Shown here piece by piece: positions 8,666-20,038 of a stretch of 61,564 nucleotides of DNA. The stretch covers positions 1 to 61,564 of the forward strand of contig NZ_AUPM01000056.1 of the NCBI RefSeq assembly GCF_003265365.1, given 5' to 3'. Source of the DNA: Petrotoga sp. 9PW.55.5.1 (GTDB taxonomy: Bacteria > Thermotogota > Thermotogae > Petrotogales > Petrotogaceae). A program made the translations under genes and the position numbers. Numbering within the stretch: the stretch's first letter is position 1; every line of letters begins with the position of its first letter. The notes beneath the pieces were generated by a model. That model did no database searches and was not told the DNA's origin. It was given only the letters and a program-made list of their open reading frames with translations.

Positions 8666-9253
8666 TTAGTCTAATCTGAAAGCTTTGTCTGCTTCTATAA
8701 TCTCATTTGCAACGTCTACTATTTTTTTATTTGAGTTTCTGCTCTTCTTTTGAAGAAATTTCATAGCTTCGCTTTCACTTAACTGTAATCGTTCCATAAC
8801 TATTCCTTTCGCTCTTTCTATTATTTTTCGAGATTCTAAAGCTTCTTTTGTGGTTTCTAGCTCGCTTTTAAGCTCTTTTATATCTTTGAATCTAGAAAGG
8901 GCTATTTCTATTGCTGCTTTTAAATCAGATTCGTCTATTGGTTTAATCAGATATCCTAACACTCCTATATCTTTTGCTTTGCTTATTAATTCTTCATCAT
9001 CATATCCGCTAACGATAATTGAGGGGACAAACTTTGTTTGAGAAATATATCTTAATGCCTCCAAACCATCCATTACAGGTAAATTTATATCAGCTATTAT
9101 TAAATCGGGGCTTTTTTCTAAAACAATTTTTACCAGCTCTTTGCCGTTAGTAGCCTCTCCTACGACTTCATAACCTAAATTTTCTAAATTATTTTTCATC
9201 CCCATTAAAATAATATATTCATCTTCAGCGATAACAATCTTTAATTTTTTCAT
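8666..9253 (-). CDS. ANTAR-domain response regulator (RNA-binding antiterminator)
   Basis: 195 residues from the ATG at 9253; an upstream ATG at 9301 would add 16 residues but overlaps the kinase gene more deeply. The receiver domain opens with KIVIAEDEYIILMGM and has a phosphoacceptor aspartate in IIADINLPVMDG. A coiled linker leads to an ANTAR domain with ERAKGIVMERLQLSESEA, matching the family core. Such regulators (EutV, NasR, AmiR) bind tandem hairpins in leader RNA and block termination. It is the partner of the HisKA_2-type kinase directly upstream, and the likely ligand RNA is the leader at 11324-11415. Confidence 0.92.
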   Translation of the reverse strand: MKKLKIVIAEDEYIILMGMKNNLENLGYEVVGEATNGKELVKIVLEKSPDLIIADINLPVMDGLEALRYISQTKFVPSIIVSGYDDEELISKAKDIGVLGYLIKPIDESDLKAAIEIALSRFKDIKELKSELETTKEALESRKIIERAKGIVMERLQLSESEAMKFLQKKSRNSNKKIVDVANEIIEADKAFRLD

Positions 9254-9275
9254 CGAATAACCCCCCCAATATTTT

Positions 9276-10793
9276 TCAAACTTTTTCAATTTTTTCTTCA
9301 AAAATATTTTCTTTATCTTTCTTAAAAGGTATCTCTATGAATACTTTTGCTCCCTCATCATTTTCAGTCTTTATTTTTCCACCTAATTGTTTGGTAACTA
9401 TTGAATATACGATTGACAATCCCAATCCATTATTTGTTGTGAGGTGAAAATTTTCTGGAAATCCTTTACCATTATCTGAGATTACTAATTGTATCTTTTC
9501 GTTATTATATTTACAAAAAACTGAAATTTTTCCTTTATTTTTTTCAGAAAAAGCATACTTTAAGCTGTTGGTAACTATTTCATTCACAACAAGTGCGATA
9601 GCAGATGCCTTACTATATGAAACAAAGACATTATCTAAATTATATTCAAACTCAGTTTTATCCTTTGTTCCTTTCATAAATTTTATAATCTGAATTATCA
9701 TTTCTTTTAAGTTAATTATACTTCTTCCTAACTTATCTTTTGATAGTAAATCATGAACAGCGGCTATACTTTTTATTTTAGAAATCAAATCATCAAGCAT
9801 TTCGTCAATATTTTTTTGAGAATCTTTTTTGAAAGACATTTTATAGAGTGACATTAAACTAATAATTGATTGTAAATTATTTTTTATTCTATGATGACTT
9901 TCTTGTAGGAGAACAGAATTTCCCATTAGTCGAGTATCATGAATAGCTAAAGCGGCTTGATGAGCAATAGTTTCTAAATATTTTATCTCCTCTTCGCTAT
10001 ATAGATAAAAATCTTTATAATAAATTTGTATTATACCGCTTAATCTTGATCTAATGTACAAAGGCACACAAATAAAGCTAAAAATATCTTTATTAATTTT
10101 GAAAAACTTTTCAAAACCTCTGTCTCTTTTAGTAAAATAGTAAACTTCCGAATCACTTATCAAGTTTAAGATTTCTTCTTCATTTGATACAAAATAAATA
10201 TTTTTATCTTTTTTGTAAAAAGATTTTCCTATTATTGTATTTGTCTCTTCATCTAATAAAGATATACTACAAGCATCAGCTTTCATTGCTTTAGCAGCAT
10301 TTTTTGCAAGTAAATTTAAAATGTCATCTAATTCGTATTCTGAAGATAAATATTCAGCTGCTTCGAATACTGACTCTATTAATTGTCTTTCTTCCCTATT
10401 TTCAGTATTATCATCGAAGCTTATTCCCATTATCTTATTGATAAGCTTTTTAGGATTATTTTTTACTTCATCTGAACTTAAAATTTCTGTTATTTCTCCA
10501 TCATTCAATATTGCCATTCTATCCGCAATTTTTAAGGCATCTTCCCACTGCTTGGTTATGTAAATTACGCTTTTTCCTTCTTTTTTATGCTTTCTTATCA
10601 TCGAATGTAAATTCATCAAAGAATTTAAAGAAATATTTTCAGCCGGTTCGTATAAAATTACTACATCAGGGTTCACTGAAAAAGCCCTAACAAATGCTAA
10701 ATTTTTTTTTTCTTCTAAAGTAAGATTCTTTACTTTTGTATTTGGATCCAATTTCAGATTGAAACTTTTTAGGATTTTTTTTTGTCTGCTCAT
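9276..10793 (-). CDS. Sensor histidine kinase (GAF, HisKA_2, HATPase) with remnant of an ABC domain at its N-terminus
   Basis: 505 residues as encoded. Residues 1-120 are the second half of an ABC ATPase domain with Walker B changed (VVILYEP, aspartate to tyrosine), a non-canonical signature (LTLEEKKNLAF) and lysine for the switch histidine (YITKQWEDA). About 140-285 is a GAF domain. H301 in HHRIKNNLQ is the phosphoacceptor of the HisKA_2 family, and a HATPase domain fills the C-terminus (NEIVTNSLKYAF, DNGKGFPENF). The ATG at 10793 lies just before a run of nine A and has a GGAAAG box. The first half of the ABC domain lies upstream in another frame, so the intact product was or is a 623-residue fusion. 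It is the cognate kinase of the adjacent ANTAR regulator. Confidence 0.88.
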   Translation of the reverse strand: MSRQKKILKSFNLKLDPNTKVKNLTLEEKKNLAFVRAFSVNPDVVILYEPAENISLNSLMNLHSMIRKHKKEGKSVIYITKQWEDALKIADRMAILNDGEITEILSSDEVKNNPKKLINKIMGISFDDNTENREERQLIESVFEAAEYLSSEYELDDILNLLAKNAAKAMKADACSISLLDEETNTIIGKSFYKKDKNIYFVSNEEEILNLISDSEVYYFTKRDRGFEKFFKINKDIFSFICVPLYIRSRLSGIIQIYYKDFYLYSEEEIKYLETIAHQAALAIHDTRLMGNSVLLQESHHRIKNNLQSIISLMSLYKMSFKKDSQKNIDEMLDDLISKIKSIAAVHDLLSKDKLGRSIINLKEMIIQIIKFMKGTKDKTEFEYNLDNVFVSYSKASAIALVVNEIVTNSLKYAFSEKNKGKISVFCKYNNEKIQLVISDNGKGFPENFHLTTNNGLGLSIVYSIVTKQLGGKIKTENDEGAKVFIEIPFKKDKENIFEEKIEKV

Positions 10794-11148
10794 TATTATC
10801 TTTCCAGTGATAAAAAAATTGAAATTTTCTGTAAAAAGAAATATGCAAAAAAAGATTTTGAGAAACAGTTAAATTTCCAAATAATCTCAATTTTTGATCA
10901 ACTATTTCAATCTTATTTTTTTTAAAATCAAGTAAGTTAAAATGTAGGATTTGCCCAATATGAATCAATTTACCACTTGCTGGCAAGTTACCAATTAATC
11001 CATCTATAATCGCATTCTTACCTGAACCATCCTGTCCAACAATGGTTATTACTTCTTCTTTATGCAATATTACACAGAATTTTTTTAAAACCTCTACTCC
11101 TTGATCTTTTACATAAAAGTTTTGAATTTCTAAAATTTTTTCTAACAT
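10687..11148 (-). CDS. N-terminal half of the pseudo-ABC domain of the sensor kinase, separated by frameshift
   Basis: From the ATG at 11148 (AGGAGT upstream) the frame encodes an ABC N-terminal lobe. The phosphate loop reads GQDGSGKNA (residues 38-46), with asparagine where Ser/Thr must coordinate magnesium. Homology runs to about residue 120 (HWKDNNEQTKK) and then becomes nonsense at a run of nine A (10775-10783). Dropping one A joins this frame exactly to the kinase frame. The tail after the run is therefore probably not a real protein end. Transcriptional slippage, a true mutation or a base-calling error would all fit. Confidence 0.7.
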   Translation of the reverse strand: MLEKILEIQNFYVKDQGVEVLKKFCVILHKEEVITIVGQDGSGKNAIIDGLIGNLPASGKLIHIGQILHFNLLDFKKNKIEIVDQKLRLFGNLTVSQNLFLHISFYRKFQFFYHWKDNNEQTKKNPKKFQSEIGSKYKSKESYFRRKKKFSIC

Positions 11149-11278: not shown

Positions 11279-11307
11279 TTGACACTAAGATAAGAAAGTT
11301 ATAAAAT
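11279..11307 (+). promoter_or_regulatory. Consensus promoter of the sugar operon leader
   Basis: TTGACA (11279-11284), a 17-base spacer and TAAAAT (11302-11307) form a near-perfect promoter divergent from the kinase operon. Transcription would start near 11314, just before the tandem hairpins. Confidence 0.7.
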
Positions 11308-11323
11308 TATACCAACATGAAAT

Positions 11324-11382
11324 TTTACGCCCATGAATGGTGTAGATATATAATTTAAAAATAAAAAGGTCATGAATGCCTT
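11324..11382 (+). promoter_or_regulatory. Tandem hairpins with identical loops, candidate ANTAR target
   Basis: Hairpin 1: arms 11324-11331 and 11339-11346 (TTTACGCC / GGTGTAGA with G-U pairs), loop CATGAAT. Hairpin 2: arms 11366-11370 and 11378-11382 (AAGGT / GCCTT), loop CATGAAT. Both share the octamer CATGAATG, 39 bases apart. The 3' arm of hairpin 2 lies inside the 5' arm of the terminator at 11375-11415, so the two structures exclude each other. This is the known architecture of ANTAR antitermination leaders. The loop differs from the published hexaloop rule (A at 1, G at 4): AUGAAU has A1 but G3. Confidence 0.65.
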
Positions 11383-11415
11383 CGTATATTGAAAAATATA
11401 CGAAGGCATTTTTTG
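11375..11415 (+). terminator. Leader terminator (attenuator) upstream of the sugar operon
   Basis: A perfect 16-bp stem, AATGCCTTCGTATATT with its reverse complement (11375-11390 / 11395-11410), has a 4-base loop and is followed by a T-run. It lies in the 5' leader, about 255 bases before the first gene and with no gene before it on this strand, which points to regulated early termination. Confidence 0.85.
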
Positions 11416-11669: not shown

Positions 11670-12626
11670 GTGAAAAAAGGTCTATTAGTTGTAATTCTAA
11701 CTGCATTGTTTAGTTTAGTAGCTTTTAGTGAAGTAGAACTAAAAACAGTTGCTTTCACTTGTCAAGATTTAGGAAATCCTTTTTTTAAACTAATGGGAGA
11801 TGCTGTAACTCAAGCAGCAAAAGATATCGGAGGTGAAAACGTTCGGGTGTTAGTTGCTTCTGCTGACAATGATTTAAACAAACAATTTACGCAGATAGAT
11901 GATTTTATAATTGCAGGAGCTCAAATAATAGTTTTAAACGCAGCAGATAGTGCGGGAATTGCGCCGGCAGTAAGAAGGGCGAAAGAAGCAGGTGTAATTG
12001 TTATAGCATCTGATGTAAGTGCTGAAGGTGGGGTGAATTATACATTAACTAGTAATAACTACCAAGCTGGCTATATTGTAGCAGAATACATAGCTGAAAA
12101 ACTTGAAGGCAAGGGAAATGTTGTTGCCATTATAGGGGATCCTGTTTCAGCTTCTTTAGATAGAAAAAAAGGATTTGATGATGTTATGTCTAAATATCCC
12201 GACTTAAATGTTTTATCTGACTCACAAAATGGTAAAGGCAGAAGAGAATTGAGCATGATCCTTATGTCTGATCTATTAACTGCTTTTCCACACATTGATG
12301 CAGTATGGGCAGTTAATGATCCTACTGCAATTGGTGCAGAACTTGCTATAAAGCAGTCTGGAAGAGCTAATGAAATCTTTGTGGTTGGAGTTGACGGATC
12401 TCCTGAAGTTGTTGCAGCCATGAAAGAAGGAGGAAGTATTATTGAAGCTACAGCTGCTCAGGACCCATGGTATATGGCTTATCACGCTGTTGAAGTTGGA
12501 TGGCAAATATTAAACGGCAACATACCAGAAGAAAAAATTGAATTAGTCCCCGTTCAACTTGTTACCAAAGAAGATGTTTTGAGTGGAAAATATACTGGTT
12601 GGCCTGTTCCTGAACAATACAAATAA
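11670..12626 (+). CDS. Sugar ABC transporter substrate-binding protein (ribose type)
   Basis: 318 residues starting at GTG with AGGAGG eight bases upstream. A signal peptide (MKKGLLVVILTALFSLVAFS) directs export. The mature part is a periplasmic binding protein type 1 domain (RbsB-like): VAFTCQDLGNPFFKLMGDAV, DFIIAGAQIIVLNAAD, AVWAVNDPTAIGAELAIKQ. It binds the sugar for the ATPase and permease encoded downstream. Expression is probably set by the attenuator at 11324-11415, and a stable hairpin follows its stop codon. The ligand is not evident, but the operon's kinases and aldolase suggest a hexose or ketose. Confidence 0.92.
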   Translation: MKKGLLVVILTALFSLVAFSEVELKTVAFTCQDLGNPFFKLMGDAVTQAAKDIGGENVRVLVASADNDLNKQFTQIDDFIIAGAQIIVLNAADSAGIAPAVRRAKEAGVIVIASDVSAEGGVNYTLTSNNYQAGYIVAEYIAEKLEGKGNVVAIIGDPVSASLDRKKGFDDVMSKYPDLNVLSDSQNGKGRRELSMILMSDLLTAFPHIDAVWAVNDPTAIGAELAIKQSGRANEIFVVGVDGSPEVVAAMKEGGSIIEATAAQDPWYMAYHAVEVGWQILNGNIPEEKIELVPVQLVTKEDVLSGKYTGWPVPEQYK

Positions 12627-12672: not shown

Positions 12673-12923
12673 CTAAGTCAAAATAAATAAACGTGTTTTT
12701 TGGGTTACATTTAAGTTTAGAATAATTAAAAATATTTTATAAAAAGAGGAAATTCCAAAAAATAAAATTATAGAAAATTATAACCTTATACAAGATAAGA
12801 AACTAAAAAAGTCAGAGAAATTGGAGTAATTGATAAGATTTGGAATCAAAAAAATTATTTTTTACATTTCAAATTTTTTTGGAATTTCTAAAAGGTAATA
12901 GTAAAATCAGGAGGAAAATAAAA
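12673..12923 (+). other. Intercistronic gap
   Basis: A-rich sequence before the ATPase gene. A TTG-initiated extension from 12840 in frame with the ATPase is possible but has no homology-like sequence. I see no promoter that I would defend. Confidence 0.3.
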
Positions 12924-14432
12924 ATGGAACAGAATAAAGTCTTAATTGAGATAAGGAAAGTATCCAAACAATTTCCTGGAGTGAGAGCTTTAAAATCTGT
13001 TTCTTTCAATATAATGGAAGGAGAGATTCATTGTATTGTTGGAGAAAATGGAGCAGGAAAATCAACACTTATGAAAATTCTTGGTGGGGTTGAAACAATG
13101 ACTTCAGGGGAAATTTTAGTAGGTAAAAAGTCTGTGAAATTTAACAATGTTGGAGAAGCACTGAAAAGTGGAATAGTACTTATTAGCCAAGAATTAAATA
13201 TTGCTGCTAATATGAAAGCGTATGAAAATATTTTTATGGGAAATGAATTAAATGAACACGGGATTCTTTCTATTAAAGAAATGAAAGAAGTTTCGAATAA
13301 CTTGTTGAGAAGTTTGGGTGCCGAATTTCCAGTAGAAGTGTATGCTGAAGAACTAAGTGTCGCTGAGCAACAGCAAATTGAAATTGCAAGAGCTTTGCAT
13401 TATAATAGCAAAATACTAATAATGGATGAACCAACAGCATCTCTATCGGAAAAGGAAACAGAAAAGCTTTTTAATGTAATGAAAGAATTGAAGAAAAAAA
13501 ACATTACTATTATTTTTATAAGTCATAGACTTTCAGAAGTTATGAAAATAGCAGATTCTGTAACAGTCTTAAGAGATGGAGAGTATATAGGGACATTGCA
13601 AAAAGATAAACTGGAAGAAGAACAGATAGTTAAATGGATGGTTGGAAGAACTTTAAAAGATTATTATTATCATAAATATAATGATAAATTACCAGATAAA
13701 GAATATATTACATTTAAAAATTACTCCGATAATAAAAAGGTATTTGACGTTTCTTTTTCTGCTAAAAAGGGAGAAATATTAGGCATTGCAGGATTGGTTG
13801 GAGCAGGGCGTACTGAGCTTTTTAACTTAATATTTGGGATTAATAAAAAAACTAGTGGCAAGTTATTTTTAAATGGCAAAGAATTATTTATAAAAAATCC
13901 GTATAATGCAATTGAAAATGGTTTGGGGTATATTCCAGAGGACAGAAAAAAACAAGGTTTGTTTTTAGAATTATCTGTTGCATTTAACTTAACGATTAAT
14001 ATCATGGATACTGAATTAATATCAAAATATAATATTATAAGTAAAAAGAAAATGATTGAAGAAGCAAGTAGAATCGTAAACTTAAGAAATATAAAGACTC
14101 CAGATAGTAATAGAGAAGTTAAATATTTATCAGGAGGGAATCAACAAAAAGTATTATTATCTCGATGGTTGGCAACAGAGCCAGATGTTATTTTTTTAGA
14201 TGAACCCACAAAAGGAATAGATGTCGGAGCCAAGAGTGAAATTTATGAGTTAATTGGTGAATTAAGTATTAAAGGAGTAACAATTATATTTATATCAAGT
14301 GAGTTGCCAGAAATTATAGGCCTTTCTCAACGAATTCTTATTATGCATAACGGAAAGATAAGTGGAGAGTTAACAGAGAAAAAAGATTTTACACAAGAAA
14401 ATATACTTAAATATGCTGCAGGACTTAAATAA
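12924..14432 (+). CDS. Sugar ABC transporter ATPase, two-domain (RbsA/MglA type)
   Basis: 502 residues from ATG 12924, which follows AGGAGG; an upstream TTG at 12840 lacks both. It has two ABC domains. The first contains GENGAGKST, IEIARALHYNSKILIMDEPTA and a switch histidine in FISHRLSEV. The second has the degenerate Walker A (GLVGAGRTE) usual in this family and a canonical LSGGNQQKVLLSRWL. It energises the permease encoded 32 bases downstream. Confidence 0.95.
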   Translation: MEQNKVLIEIRKVSKQFPGVRALKSVSFNIMEGEIHCIVGENGAGKSTLMKILGGVETMTSGEILVGKKSVKFNNVGEALKSGIVLISQELNIAANMKAYENIFMGNELNEHGILSIKEMKEVSNNLLRSLGAEFPVEVYAEELSVAEQQQIEIARALHYNSKILIMDEPTASLSEKETEKLFNVMKELKKKNITIIFISHRLSEVMKIADSVTVLRDGEYIGTLQKDKLEEEQIVKWMVGRTLKDYYYHKYNDKLPDKEYITFKNYSDNKKVFDVSFSAKKGEILGIAGLVGAGRTELFNLIFGINKKTSGKLFLNGKELFIKNPYNAIENGLGYIPEDRKKQGLFLELSVAFNLTINIMDTELISKYNIISKKKMIEEASRIVNLRNIKTPDSNREVKYLSGGNQQKVLLSRWLATEPDVIFLDEPTKGIDVGAKSEIYELIGELSIKGVTIIFISSELPEIIGLSQRILIMHNGKISGELTEKKDFTQENILKYAAGLK

Positions 14433-14464: not shown

Positions 14465-15445
14465 ATGGAAGAAAAAAATTTAAAAAAGAGTGAAAATAAT
14501 ATAGTTAAAGACCGAGTAAAAACTGTTATGAGGGATTTTGGGATTTTACCAATTTTAATAGTGGTAATAATTATTTTTGCTTTAATGTCTCCTAATTTTG
14601 CAACTTTCTCTAATACTATGAATATCTTAAGAGCTACTTCAATTAATTTGGTAGTTGCTGTAGGGATGACTTTTGTTATTTTAACGGGGGGAATTGATTT
14701 GTCGGTAGGATCAACGGCGGCTTTAGCAGCAGTTGTTGCTCTTAAGGTTTCATTGACTCCTTCTGCAATTTTATCTGTTCCCACGGCTTTATTAATAGGA
14801 GCAGGAGCAGGTTTGATAAACGGACTTTTAGTTGCCTATGTGGGTATTCCTCCGTTTATTGCTACTCTTGGAGCCATGACTTATCTTAGAGGGGCTTCTT
14901 TCCTTCTAGCAAATGGTGTTTCTATTATAAATAGCAATCTAAATTTTGCTTGGATAGGGAATGGTTATTTAGGTCCAATACCTTGGTTAGCAGTGATCGC
15001 ACTTCTTGCAGTTTTTATAGGTGCTTGGATATCAAAAAAAACTGTATATGGTATGAGAATATATGCAGTAGGAGGCAATTTAGAAGCTGCTAAATATACA
15101 GGAATAAAGACAAAAAGAATTTTAATGTCTGTTTACATTATAAGTGGTTTAGCTAGCGCTCTTGCTGGTATAATGATCGCGAGTAGAATGTATAGTGCAA
15201 ATGGTTTAATTGGTCAAGGATATGAATTAGATGCTATTGCAGCAGTTATTATAGGAGGAACAAGTTTTACGGGAGGAAAAGGAACTCTTGTAGGGACACT
15301 TTTTGGAGCTATACTTATGGGAGTATTGAATAACTGGATGACATTAATGGGAATTTCCTATTATTGGCAACAAGTCGTTAGAGGCTCAGTAATTGTAATA
15401 GCTGTTATAGTTGATACTTTAAGAACAAAATATTCCAGAAGTTGA
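14465..15445 (+). CDS. Sugar ABC transporter permease (RbsC type)
   Basis: 326 residues with a hydrophilic N-terminus and about 8-10 membrane segments. BPD_transp_2 hallmarks are ILTGGIDLSVGSTAALAA and, near the C-terminus, ELDAIAAVIIGGTSFTGGKG. A homodimer of this protein would form the membrane channel with the ATPase encoded just upstream. The ATG is preceded by AAAGGAG. Confidence 0.95.
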   Translation: MEEKNLKKSENNIVKDRVKTVMRDFGILPILIVVIIIFALMSPNFATFSNTMNILRATSINLVVAVGMTFVILTGGIDLSVGSTAALAAVVALKVSLTPSAILSVPTALLIGAGAGLINGLLVAYVGIPPFIATLGAMTYLRGASFLLANGVSIINSNLNFAWIGNGYLGPIPWLAVIALLAVFIGAWISKKTVYGMRIYAVGGNLEAAKYTGIKTKRILMSVYIISGLASALAGIMIASRMYSANGLIGQGYELDAIAAVIIGGTSFTGGKGTLVGTLFGAILMGVLNNWMTLMGISYYWQQVVRGSVIVIAVIVDTLRTKYSRS

Positions 15446-15485
15446 ATATATAATTAAACACAAATTGATTTTGAGAGGTAATATT

Positions 15486-16652
15486 ATGAAAATATCTGGA
15501 GTTGGATGTTGGATAGTTGATTATATTTATAAAGATATTAACTTTTTAGATTTTTCAACGAAGAAATACGCTAGTAAAGATGGTAAAAATGGTATTATAA
15601 TTGGCGAAGCTAATCTTGTTAATGAACTGGAGAATTATTTTAATGAATCTATAAATCACATTATAAATGATATATCAAAAGGTCAAAAACCTATCAAAAG
15701 ATTAGGCGGAGTAGCAATTATTGCAACAATAGGGGCTTCACAATTACTATACGATTTTAAAGATATAGATTTTTATTATTATGCTAATATTCCCGATACT
15801 ACTATAGGAAAATACGTGTATGACACATTAAAAAATACCCCCCTTTCTTTGGAGCACATTCAAATTAAAAAAGGACAAGATACCTTAACTTATATACTTT
15901 GTGAAAAAGAAAAAAATGGAGAATCTTCTCGTACTTTCATCGGTTCTCCTCACATCCATCCTTCAACAGCTTTAAAAGTACAACAGCTTAGCAATGATTT
16001 TTTTTTGAGTGATATTAATTATTTTGGTCATATAGCTTGGGAATATATAGTAAATAATGACTTTTCTTATATTTTAAAAAAATGTAAAAAAAATAAAAAT
16101 ATTACAATTGTTAGTACTGCAAGTGATGCGTCAATGAGAAATAAAAAAAGATGGATTTTGGGTGATTCTGATGATGTATACAATTTTATTGATTTTATCA
16201 TTATGAATAAATCGGAAGCGCTTCATTATAGTGGAGGGAATGATTTATATGATGCTTTAAAATTTTTTAAGTCTTTTCCAATAGAAGGAATACTAATTAC
16301 TGACGGTACAAACCCAACATATATTTACAGTAGAGGAAATATGTCTTTTCCATTTGAAGGATTTATTCCTATAGCTGAGGATATCATTAACGATAAAGAG
16401 AGAGGCATACTTTCAAAAGGAGATACTGTAGGATGTGGAGATAATTTTGTAAGTGGTGTAATTGCTTCAATTGCTTTACAATTGACGAACAATAACAAGC
16501 AAATAGATTTAAAAGAAGCCGGTATATTAGGAAATATAAATGGAGCTCTTGCTTCAACAATTCACGGAGGATTTTATGAAGAAAATATACAAGGAGAAAG
16601 AAAAAAGATTGTTGAAAATTATTACTACAAATATAAAATTAAAAATGAATAA
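15486..16652 (+). CDS. PfkB-family carbohydrate kinase
   Basis: 388 residues from ATG 15486, preceded by GAGAGG; a TTG at 15465 is less likely. The C-terminal PfkB signature is KGDTVGCGDNFVSG, where the usual GAGD anion hole reads GCGD and D is the catalytic base. The N-terminal sugar-binding part with GGVAIIATIGASQL is divergent and long, about 60-80 residues more than ribokinase. It lies between the permease and a class II aldolase, so phosphorylation of a sugar phosphate before aldol cleavage (as by 1-phosphofructokinase or tagatose-6-phosphate kinase) is a reasonable inference. Confidence 0.82.
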   Translation: MKISGVGCWIVDYIYKDINFLDFSTKKYASKDGKNGIIIGEANLVNELENYFNESINHIINDISKGQKPIKRLGGVAIIATIGASQLLYDFKDIDFYYYANIPDTTIGKYVYDTLKNTPLSLEHIQIKKGQDTLTYILCEKEKNGESSRTFIGSPHIHPSTALKVQQLSNDFFLSDINYFGHIAWEYIVNNDFSYILKKCKKNKNITIVSTASDASMRNKKRWILGDSDDVYNFIDFIIMNKSEALHYSGGNDLYDALKFFKSFPIEGILITDGTNPTYIYSRGNMSFPFEGFIPIAEDIINDKERGILSKGDTVGCGDNFVSGVIASIALQLTNNNKQIDLKEAGILGNINGALASTIHGGFYEENIQGERKKIVENYYYKYKIKNE

Positions 16653-16666
16653 AAGGAGAAGATTTT

Positions 16667-17512
16667 ATGGCTATTGTTAATTTAAGAGAAGTATTAACAG
16701 ACGCAAATAAAAGGAATTATGCAGTGGGATGTTTTAATACAATAAATTATGAATCAGTACGAGGAGTTCTTGAAGCAGCAGAAGAAACTAGATCTCCAGT
16801 AATAATTGGTATTGCCGAATCTCAACTTGTTGATGTGGACCTTTTTTCCATTATGAATATTATGACTTATGAAGCAAAAAGATTTTCAATCCCCATAGTT
16901 ATTCATCTTGACCATGGGACTACTTTTGAAACAATAAGAAGAGCTATAGAATTGGGGTGTAGCTCTGTTATGTATGATGGTTCTTCTTTGCCTTTAGAAG
17001 AAAATATAAAAAATACCAAAAAAATTGTTGAATACGCAGCGTCCTTAAATGTGTTTGTAGAAGCCGAAGTTGGCGAAATGGGGAGTGAAACTAAAGAGAT
17101 TTCACTTGAAAGAGCAGAAGAAACAGATTTATTATTGGCATTAGAATTTGTAAAACATGTTACTGTAGACGCTTTGGCAGTATCTTTTGGTACAAGGCAC
17201 GGTATAACCAGCGAAACCCCAAAGCTGAATATAAAATTATTGGAAGAAATTCATAAAAAATTGAACATTCCTTTAGTAATGCACGGAGGATCAGGGCTAA
17301 GACAAGAAGATTATAAATGTGTTATAAAAAATGGGATTAGAAAAATCAATTATTTTAGTTATGGATATTTAGAAGTTGCAAACAAAATACGAAACTTAAT
17401 AAACAAAAGTCCTTCTATTTTGTATGATAAAATTTCCTATTTTTCAAAAGAAGCATTTAAAGAAGTTTACAAAGAAGTAATGAAAATGTTTGAATGTGCA
17501 GGGAAGGCTTGA
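16667..17512 (+). CDS. Class II fructose/tagatose-bisphosphate aldolase
   Basis: 281 residues of the FbaA/GatY/KbaY family. Metal and substrate motifs: HLDHGTTFETI (zinc histidine near residue 83), a central VEAEVGEMG with the second metal ligand, and the phosphate loop VMHGGSGL. The length fits the short GatY/FbaA type. It cleaves a ketose 1,6-bisphosphate to DHAP and an aldehyde. It sits between two sugar kinases, consistent with two-step activation of an imported sugar. Confidence 0.9.
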   Translation: MAIVNLREVLTDANKRNYAVGCFNTINYESVRGVLEAAEETRSPVIIGIAESQLVDVDLFSIMNIMTYEAKRFSIPIVIHLDHGTTFETIRRAIELGCSSVMYDGSSLPLEENIKNTKKIVEYAASLNVFVEAEVGEMGSETKEISLERAEETDLLLALEFVKHVTVDALAVSFGTRHGITSETPKLNIKLLEEIHKKLNIPLVMHGGSGLRQEDYKCVIKNGIRKINYFSYGYLEVANKIRNLINKSPSILYDKISYFSKEAFKEVYKEVMKMFECAGKA

Positions 17513-17517
17513 TAATA

Positions 17518-18924
17518 ATGAATACTTTAGGAATAGATTTTGGTACAACTTCATATAGTGCTTGTTTCTTTAGTAACGAAACAAGAAATTTTTTATTTAA
17601 AAATAGAAAAAATGATAGTCTTATTATTGATGGACTAAATAATGAATTTAAAATAACAAAAGTAAGATCCGAATTTAAAAGTTTTATTAATGATTTAGGT
17701 GAAGTTTTTAATTTAAATGAAGTTGAGGCAATTACTATAACGGGTAATATGCATAGCTTTTTCTTAGTAAAAAATGATACTCCTATTACGAATATAATCA
17801 CTTGGCAAGATCAAAGATCTTTAGAAAAATATAAAGATAATGAATCATATATTGAATATATAAACAAGAATTATCGAGAACTTTTTTCAAAATTTCAACA
17901 TTATCTTACTTCAGGATATGCAGTCACTACCTTGTTGCCTTTATCTCAAATCATAGATTTTAAAGGTTGTTCTTTGCATTTCGCACCTGAATTTCTTTTA
18001 AAAGAACTATTAGGTGATAAGCCATATAGTGAAATACCAACTGACCATTCTTTGGCTCATAGTAGTGGTTTTTATGATTTGGAGACTAAAGATTGGAATT
18101 ATAGATTAATTGAAGAGTTAGGTTATAAAGATCTTTTGCTTCCTAGAATTGAAGACGCTGGTAGCTTTATTGGATATGTAGGAAACCATATTCCACAATT
18201 ATCGGGAGTTCCAATTTATTTGGGAATGGGAGATAATCAAGCATCTGTGCTAGGCTCTATTTTTGAAAAGAAAATTAATGATGAATTTGCAAATATTTTT
18301 GATGAGTCAAAAATATTAGTCATGAATATAGGCACAAGTGGACAAATATCTTCTGTTACGTGTAAGACAAATAATGTTTCGGAATTTTTAGAATATAGAC
18401 CTTTTGTTGATGATTATTTATTATTGGTAGGGGCAAGTTTGTCGGCAGGTAAAACTATCGAGATTATTAAAAATTTCACAAAGGAAATATTAAGAAAAAT
18501 AACTAAAAAAAGCTATGATGATAATAAAATTTATGAAATTATCAAAAATTCTGTTTTGCCCTATTCAACATTAAAATTTCGTACTACGTTAAATGGAACG
18601 CGTTATGACCCTTATTTAAGAGGTTTTATTGACAATATAGGTTTAACTAATTTTACTTACGAAAATTTGATAACTGCTGCAGCATATGGAATAATAGAAG
18701 AGTTATATTTTTATTATCAAAAAATGGATTTTGATTGTGAAACTATAATTGGTATTGGAACTGGATTACAGAAAAACCCCTTTTTCCAAAATATTATAAA
18801 AAAAGTGTTTAAAAGAGATTTTTTTTTGAGTAAATTAAAAGAAACTACTAGTTTTGGAGCGGCCATATGTGCATTAAATGCTAGATTATATGGAAAGGAG
18901 GTTTTAGATCATGATTTTAAATAA
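17518..18924 (+). CDS. FGGY-family carbohydrate kinase
   Basis: 468 residues from ATG 17518, preceded by GGGAAGG and six bases after the aldolase. The N-terminal ASKHA phosphate loop is GIDFGTTSYSACFF. ITGNMHSFF and ITWQDQRS correspond to the substrate-binding segment of xylulokinase- and sedoheptulokinase-like enzymes, and GMGDNQASVLGSI precedes the second domain. The TGQMHG element of xylulokinases is altered to TGNMHS, so the substrate is uncertain (ketohexose, sedoheptulose or similar). Confidence 0.85.
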   Translation: MNTLGIDFGTTSYSACFFSNETRNFLFKNRKNDSLIIDGLNNEFKITKVRSEFKSFINDLGEVFNLNEVEAITITGNMHSFFLVKNDTPITNIITWQDQRSLEKYKDNESYIEYINKNYRELFSKFQHYLTSGYAVTTLLPLSQIIDFKGCSLHFAPEFLLKELLGDKPYSEIPTDHSLAHSSGFYDLETKDWNYRLIEELGYKDLLLPRIEDAGSFIGYVGNHIPQLSGVPIYLGMGDNQASVLGSIFEKKINDEFANIFDESKILVMNIGTSGQISSVTCKTNNVSEFLEYRPFVDDYLLLVGASLSAGKTIEIIKNFTKEILRKITKKSYDDNKIYEIIKNSVLPYSTLKFRTTLNGTRYDPYLRGFIDNIGLTNFTYENLITAAAYGIIEELYFYYQKMDFDCETIIGIGTGLQKNPFFQNIIKKVFKRDFFLSKLKETTSFGAAICALNARLYGKEVLDHDFK

Positions 18925-20038
18925 AGGTGAAATTATTAAACAATTAAATAAACCTCTTTTAATTAAAGAGAATAGAGTTCGCAGGTTATATAAAGGAGGT
19001 GCTTTAATTGATAGATTTAGAAGACATATGGTGGCGAAAGATGATTTTTTACCAGAAGATTGGATAGGTTCAACTACTTTAGCTATAAATAGGGATCCTA
19101 TTCCTGAGGAAGGAATAGGAAAATTAATAATTAAAGATCCTAAAATTAGTTCCGATATGGAAATATCTTTTAAAAAAATTTTGGAGATTCCTGAATATGC
19201 TGAAACATTATTTGGGGATGGAATTGAAAGAGGAAAAACACCCGGCATATTGGTTAAGTTATTAGATTCAATTACCAGGCTTCCTTTACAAACTCATCCT
19301 AATAAAAAATTTACCTCTAAATATTTTCACGATAATCATGGAAAGTGTGAAAGTTGGATAGTTTTAGAGGGAAGAAAAATAAATAATGAAGACCCTTATG
19401 TTTTGTATGGTTTTAAAGAACACGTCACTAAAGAATTGTTCATAAAAGCATACAATGAGCAAAAAATAAAATTAATGGAATCTTTTATGAATAAAATTTA
19501 TGTTAAACCTGGAGATATATTTTATATTGAGCCAAATATTATTCATGCAATTGGACCAGGAGTATTTTTATTGGAAATTCAAGAACCTACAGATTATGTA
19601 TTTCAATTTGATAAAAAAGGAGAATATTGGGAACTTAATGATTATGAAGTACATATGGGTCTTGGTGAAGAAGTGATGCTTAATACAATTGAGTATGAGT
19701 TGAAAGGATCTAAATTGGTAAATAAAAACTTTTCACATATAGACATTTATAAGAATTATAATGATATAATTCCTTTATTTAAAAAGGAACAAAATGAATA
19801 CTTTGGATGTGATTTAATAACATCTGAAAAAAGTATTCAAAGAGTGCATAAGGAAATAAGAATAGGAGTTGTAATAGAAGGATCTTTAAATTTAAATTTA
19901 AATGGCTCAATTTTACAAGTACAGAAAGGTGATACCTATATGTTGCCAGCACCTTCTGGAACTGCATTTCACATTTGTAATTATAATAATATAAAAGGCA
20001 AAGATTATTTTTCCATTTTAGAAGCTTTTCCAATTTAA
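18911..20038 (+). CDS. Class I mannose-6-phosphate isomerase-like cupin
   Basis: 375 residues overlapping the kinase gene by 14 bases, which implies translational coupling. The type I PMI motifs are in order: LPLQTHPNKKF (zinc ligands Q and H), ESWIVLEG, and DIFYIEPNIIHAIGPG with the distal zinc histidine. A second cupin half follows (VIEGSLNLNLNG). It would interconvert mannose-6-phosphate and fructose-6-phosphate, or act on a related phosphosugar supplied by the FGGY kinase. It is the last gene of the operon. Confidence 0.85.
   Translation: MILNKGEIIKQLNKPLLIKENRVRRLYKGGALIDRFRRHMVAKDDFLPEDWIGSTTLAINRDPIPEEGIGKLIIKDPKISSDMEISFKKILEIPEYAETLFGDGIERGKTPGILVKLLDSITRLPLQTHPNKKFTSKYFHDNHGKCESWIVLEGRKINNEDPYVLYGFKEHVTKELFIKAYNEQKIKLMESFMNKIYVKPGDIFYIEPNIIHAIGPGVFLLEIQEPTDYVFQFDKKGEYWELNDYEVHMGLGEEVMLNTIEYELKGSKLVNKNFSHIDIYKNYNDIIPLFKKEQNEYFGCDLITSEKSIQRVHKEIRIGVVIEGSLNLNLNGSILQVQKGDTYMLPAPSGTAFHICNYNNIKGKDYFSILEAFPI

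Follow-up and report, generated by a model that had tools for sequence, protein, structure and literature searches.

Published work describes the RNA targets of ANTAR-domain proteins by a dual hexaloop rule, in which each loop carries A at position 1 and G at position 4 (A1 and G4; PMC3369931, PMC8934654, PMC8164766). Two EutV residues contribute to this recognition, Tyr164 by stacking on G4 and Met172 by plugging the loop (PMC8934654). The EutV/EutW targets of the Enterococcus faecalis eut genes (PMC3369931, PMC8934654) resemble the leader analyzed here, which lies in a 61,564-nt stretch of Petrotoga sp. 9PW.55.5.1 DNA (hereafter the window). Both have two hairpins (P1 and P2) with related loops, an overlap between P2 and a terminator, an ANTAR-domain response regulator with a histidine kinase nearby, and G as the fourth loop base. 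However, the EutV/EutW loops are 6 nt long with A1 and are joined by linkers of 5-12 nt, whereas the window loops are 7 nt long with a pyrimidine in first position and are separated by 19 nt. Moreover, the window regulator lacks the Tyr164, Arg168 and Met172 of EutV, and its target is not ethanolamine but sugar transport, with a kinase that carries an ABC-ATPase-like domain.

The NasR-nasF and AmiR-amiE leaders (PMC3369931) likewise form a dual hairpin antiterminator overlapping a terminator, but their loops are hexaloops with A1 and G4, and the genes controlled are those for nitrate and amide. Neither NasR nor AmiR is known to be a two-component response regulator of the type found in the window. 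Sugar transporter genes have been proposed as targets of actinobacterial ANTAR RNAs (PMC8164766); these have hexaloops, are located for the most part at ribosome-binding sites or within coding sequences, overlap terminators in few cases, and are not accompanied by a dedicated kinase of the window architecture in the relevant sections of that paper. Genome G012, from the same family as the window, also has a dual hairpin with a terminator at its eut operon. There the loops, C[AATGAT]G and C[AATGAG]G, are canonical, and so are Met172 and Arg168 of the ANTAR domain. In that operon (L011 7887-10150), transposase genes split the EutV gene between receiver and ANTAR domain, and the split gene adjoins the canonical dual hexaloop leaders. 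Neither an ANTAR system with heptaloops nor one with such a kinase was found in the open-access literature searched, which excludes subscription papers and preprints.

A preliminary description of the locus, made without database searches, had proposed a consensus promoter followed by two hairpins with CATGAAT loops and a 16-bp terminator, and all of these elements are indeed present (Table 1). Transcription is predicted to start at ∼11314, and a TTGA-type promoter with 17-18 nt spacing precedes 14 of 16 scanned leaders, the one in the window included. A scan for terminator-like structures returned 2 sites against 0.0 expected in shuffled sequences. The octamer CATGAATG that the two hairpins had been noted to share is present, but taken alone it is at chance level (3 occurrences in the window versus 2.1 expected) and was not used as a signal. 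No Rfam family reaches its gathering score for the leader, and the weak matches below that score were dismissed as chance.

Table 1. Features of the ANTAR-linked sugar locus in the window.
Feature	Coordinates	Strand	Details
ANTAR response regulator, presumed RNA-binding antiterminator	8666..9301	-	likely start 9253
Kinase, C-terminal part	9276..10793	-	end of ABC-like domain, GAF, HisKA_2, HATPase_c
Kinase, N-terminal part	10687..11148	-	ABC-ATPase-like domain, ABC_tran 35.9 bits
Promoter of the sugar operon	11279..11307	+	-35 TTGACA (11279-11284), 17 nt, -10 TAAAAT (11302-11307); 11/12 consensus
Hairpin P1	11324..11346	+	8-pair stem TTTACGCC/GGTGTAGA (11324-11331 with 11339-11346); heptaloop CATGAAT (11332-11338)
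Hairpin P2 (putative antiterminator)	11366..11382	+	AAGGT/GCCTT (11366-11370 with 11378-11382); heptaloop CATGAAT (11371-11377); U-G closing pair
Intrinsic terminator	11374..11415	+	16-17 bp perfect stem (11374/5-11390 with 11395-11410/1), GAAA loop, T-run
Sugar-binding protein (Peripla_BP_4), operon gene 1	11670..12626	+	191 bits
RbsA-type double ABC ATPase	12840..14432	+	domain search
RbsC-type permease (BPD_transp_2)	14465..15445	+	domain search
Catabolic genes: PfkB kinase, class II aldolase, FGGY kinase, cupin isomerase-like protein	15465..20038	+	

The terminator 5' arm includes the 3' arm of P2 together with the last bases of the P2 loop. When RNA was folded from the predicted start to 11384, as a nascent transcript, exactly P1 and P2 were obtained, while the full-length RNA to 11415 folded into P1 and the terminator (-32.3 kcal/mol, z = -6.9). 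Since both states use bases 11375-11382, P2 and the terminator are mutually exclusive, as had been proposed. A competing helix that hides P1 appeared in a fold started further upstream; it was discounted, since essentially all of its 5' arm (11308-11314) precedes the predicted transcription start.

The kinase, correctly recognized beforehand as a HisKA_2 protein, starts 131 bp from the leader in divergent orientation. The ANTAR gene, which had been placed at about that distance, is in fact located on the far side of the kinase, at a distance of ∼2 kb. An N-terminal ABC-ATPase-like domain was also found in the kinase, which in the window assembly is split into two ORFs by a frameshift at an A9 run (∼10775-10785, minus strand); alignment showed that its intact homologues are one continuous ORF. 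For this split (10687-10868), sequencing error, pseudogene and slippage cannot be distinguished. Over its N-terminal 250 residues, the kinase matches Pfam ABC_tran and the first half of ATPases of the XylG/YtfR/AraG/RbsA type. Reading the motifs by eye, we found those for catalysis degraded in all aligned kinases: Walker A reads GKN/GKE or is lost instead of GK[ST], LSGGQ has become LTLEEKK-like, the Walker B Asp is Tyr or His, and the switch His is Lys. A TVAEN-like segment after the Q-loop is retained. The domain resembles a sugar-transporter ATPase that has lost its catalytic function. By inference, this likeness makes the state of the sugar transporter itself the likeliest input to the kinase, and docking of the domain on the permease is a hypothesis.

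The regulator has a receiver (Response_reg, PF00072, 95.8 bits) and an ANTAR domain (PF03861, 75.7 bits), both above the curated cut-offs, and its gene is the only ANTAR gene in the genome. Across the RNA-contact region it aligns to EutV without gaps, with EutV numbering checked against the residues named in PMC8934654. The contact residues Arg142, Lys143, Lys149, Glu160 and Asn173 are retained, while Tyr164, Arg168 and Met172 are replaced by Met180, Gln184 and Arg188 (numbering of the window regulator); in addition, Arg175 has become Asn, Arg177 has become Lys and Lys147 has become Arg. The EutV-type contacts (Tyr/Phe164, Arg168, Met172) are thus absent, with Met, Gln and Arg in the window and in all near relatives and Lys at 172 in L125 and G382. 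To place these changes we read the 80 best-scoring relatives returned when GTDB genomes were searched with the regulator alignment. Position 164 is Phe or Tyr (His once) in all but seven, which share Met164 with the window regulator (L061, L062, L063, L066, L125, L129 and L137). Residues 168 and 172 alone vary among other ANTARs, so Met164 is the more distinctive change. An ABC-HisKA_2 kinase adjoins the ANTAR gene at four of the Met164 loci (L061-L063 and L125), and leaders are present in all four genomes, the one in G103 on a different contig. For the distant Met164 ANTARs of L066, L129 and L137, no such kinase was recorded and no element was detected.

The conservation of the leader was analyzed in an alignment of 14 sequences. 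Because linkers vary in length, MAFFT alignments of full leaders broke P1, and fixed-length P1 and P2 segments joined by N were used instead. The loop consensus is the heptaloop YANGRNN (Y1-A2-N3-G4-R5-N6-N7), closed by a U-G or C-G pair. Judged by the features of ANTAR targets, the leader has two consecutive hairpins of at least 3 bp, an overlap of P2 with an intrinsic terminator, and G4 in every heptaloop (position 3 if the loop is counted as a hexaloop). It does not have hexanucleotide loops, the loop being 7 nt in every row, nor A1, position 1 being C or T in 14/14 rows. Outside this alignment, the P1 loop of G003 has 9 nt and the P2 loop of G382 is a hexaloop. Base pairing was supported by covariation: 95.6% of cells were paired, versus 39-54% when the sequences were slid, double-change cells numbered 34 versus 9.7 in shuffled data, and compensatory double changes occurred in 7 of 8 P1 pairs and 2 of 5 P2 pairs. 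Segment boundaries were set manually to follow the structure; this inflates the percentage paired and affects the double changes less. Related sequences were counted separately. The departure from the A1/G4 hexaloop rule noted in the preliminary description is thus confirmed. It likely amounts to a variant code in which the loop has seven bases, the first a pyrimidine and the fourth still G, although there are no binding data.

An ANTAR gene occurs in 10 of the 21 genomes of the window's family; nine of these genes, including the window's, are orthologues, and the tenth belongs to the eut operon. The leader is present in six of the nine ortholog-bearing genomes, each time divergent from the kinase, and the adjoining transporter differs among the six, with binding proteins only 23-32% identical to that of the window. 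When no more than one mismatch is allowed, the P2 pattern has a single match in each of these six genomes, beside the kinase. Genome-wide matches with two mismatches were mostly chance or coding, and only matches beside the kinase with at most one mismatch were retained; one-mismatch matches in G019 and G020 were rejected as coding. No leader was detected in G002, G015 and G017, where the ANTAR gene is intact. This is an outcome that had been named in advance as refuting the proposal. In G015 and G017, however, the kinase is interrupted by transposase-like sequence (L015 10419-11736, L019 9575-10214), and in G002 it lacks the ABC-like part. As all three leaderless genomes have a broken or truncated kinase, leader and intact kinase appear to have been lost together.

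The arrangement recurs in a second family of the order. In G045, G048 and G050, the kinase, the ANTAR gene and a sugar ABC operon with DhaK/DhaL point in the same direction; the stretch between ANTAR gene and operon holds one leader, and another is located ∼9 kb further on. Leaders of the same kind precede a GATase1_like-DhaK-DhaL-ABC operon in G044 and G038, two draft genomes in which no ANTAR gene was found (L160 9500-9800, L161 4700-5050). From these leaders at two operons we infer that one regulator might serve both. The covariance model R1, applied to 103 genomes from the phylum, gave matches scoring at least 30 bits in 11 of them, and all matches whose context was read lie ahead of sugar ABC or DhaK operons. 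G003, which was outside the training set, was recovered. The sole false match of this search, at 24.0 bits in G009, was rejected as it falls within a mutL-like ORF.

The same association was observed in Bacillota. Among 193 genomes of the Mesobacillus family, the four with the R1 element are the same four that have the ANTAR subfamily, and the element was found in none of the other 189; three of the four were outside the training set. Their subfamily ANTARs score 262-270 bits, with the next best at 179, and have Met164/Gln168/Arg172, versus Tyr or Phe164 with Met172 in the next-best ANTARs read. The Gracilibacillus family has the element in 3/3 subfamily genomes, two of them at threshold with R1 and the third (G635) found only by local search at 24.5 bits. 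In an Oscillospiraceae sample, R1 found G106. A match at 27.3 bits in G334 was rejected as coding. The Bacillaceae leaders at L062 10594-10900 and L163 330-530 have an extra hairpin upstream of P1, which in L062 bears the same kind of heptaloop (TACGATT), and would therefore offer three possible binding sites. In G382, also from the Oscillospiraceae sample, which encodes a Met164/Lys172 ANTAR and an ABC-like kinase, two tandem leaders stand ahead of a nucleoside-type ABC operon (L213 11850-12080). Their code is mixed, with P1 heptaloop TATGGCT and, by eye, a P2 hexaloop with A1 and G4. By inference, this suggests that an N-A-U-G core is read and that the variant has an extra 3' loop base.

A pattern finder that required an overlapping terminator and minimum stem lengths of 5 bp for P1 and 4 bp for P2 was run on both strands of 1.67 Mb. 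With the heptaloop YANGRNN it matched only at kinase/ANTAR loci of this subfamily and at none of ∼70 other ANTAR loci, while the reversed loop pattern gave no match in the 1.67 Mb. With the hexaloop ANNGNN it returned the eut operon of G012, L116 and L084. Since YANGRNN was written after the first leaders were known, their recovery is not independent, but its absence elsewhere is. Taken together, all 18 examined genomes with a subfamily ANTAR and an undisrupted kinase of the pseudo-ABC-GAF-HisKA_2 architecture carry the leader: nine in the window's phylum (G000, G001, G003, G013, G014, G016, G045, G048 and G050) and nine Bacillota (G103, G104, G105, G106, G120, G122, G123, G382 and G635), with a canonical P2 hexaloop in one (G382). 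This count covers the genomes looked at and is no census, and it sets aside the frameshift in the window's own assembly.

We consider it very likely that the leader attenuates transcription and that the neighboring ANTAR response regulator keeps it open through a variant loop code, with the reservation that no binding, expression or phosphorylation data exist. The structures, their mutual exclusion, conservation and covariation, and the linkage to one regulator subfamily are shown; RNA binding, control by phosphorylation and the identity of the inducer are inferred. In the proposed mechanism, RNA polymerase would start at the strong sigma-A promoter and, without a signal, P1 and the terminator would form and transcription would end at ∼11415. 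Upon a signal, the kinase would phosphorylate the regulator, which, presumably as a dimer by analogy with EutV, would bind the nascent RNA, first at the P1 loop and then at that of P2. With the terminator's 5'-arm bases held in P2, the terminator could not form and the sugar operon would be read. The variant heptaloop would be recognized by an ANTAR subfamily altered at the residues that in EutV stack on or position G4.

Three alternatives were considered. The leader could be a canonical target after all, with hexaloops AWGRRN closed by a Y1-G8 pair, the neighboring pyrimidine bulged, and the G at position 3. Y1 and the following G8 occur in every aligned P1 and P2, so this pair could form. 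However, a C0-G8 pair in the window P1 and in P2 of Mesobacillus, Gracilibacillus and further genomes makes a 7-nt loop simpler, folding gives heptaloops, and even in a hexaloop the G would not occupy position 4; this alternative is unlikely. Less credible still, and very unlikely, is an attenuator sensed by other means, such as a metabolite riboswitch, a BglG-type or another RNA-binding protein, with the ANTAR gene nearby by coincidence. Hairpin spacing varies and binding data are lacking, which leaves some room for it, but no Rfam family reaches threshold, two similar loops on simple stems offer no ligand pocket, and co-occurrence with one ANTAR subfamily is strict across unrelated lineages with different transported substrates. 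That the regulator blocks read-through, or that the second hairpin acts on translation, is also very unlikely: many actinobacterial ANTAR targets do overlap ribosome-binding sites (PMC8164766), but an intrinsic terminator overlaps each of the heptaloop leaders that the finder returned, the start codon of the operon in the window is ∼250 nt further downstream, and P2 cannot coexist with the terminator, which is also the case in EutV targets. The reading as an ANTAR-controlled attenuator is favored because the leader recurs with the compensatory changes that had been named in advance as support, and co-occurs with the altered ANTAR subfamily and its kinase. The earlier proposal that a sugar uptake and catabolic operon is under ANTAR control thus has comparative support, without binding or expression data.

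A bolder reading joins two ideas: a second ANTAR code, in which Met164/Gln168/Arg(Lys)172 reads YANGRNN, and a soluble kinase that senses transport through docking of its transporter-derived dead ABC domain on the permease; sugar flux would thereby open the operon's own terminator. As a joint claim, we judge it possible but less likely than not. Weighing against the main reading, that of an ANTAR-controlled attenuator, are the leaderless G002, G015 and G017, the leaders without ANTAR in G038 and G044, the 9-nt P1 loop of G003, a linker longer than those of EutV targets, the frameshifted window kinase, and L066, L129 and L137 without the element.

Sugar-linked ANTAR targets as such are not new, as the actinobacterial proposals, mainly of translational elements, show (PMC8164766). 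ANTAR targets have been sought with hexaloop-A1-G4 models, and heptaloop targets would therefore be missed. The RNA and protein changes coincide in both phyla. Since the two codes exist side by side in a single family, ANTAR specificity is directly testable by a few residue swaps. ANTAR antitermination would also extend to operons for sugar transport whose dedicated kinase apparently borrows the ATPase domain of a transporter.
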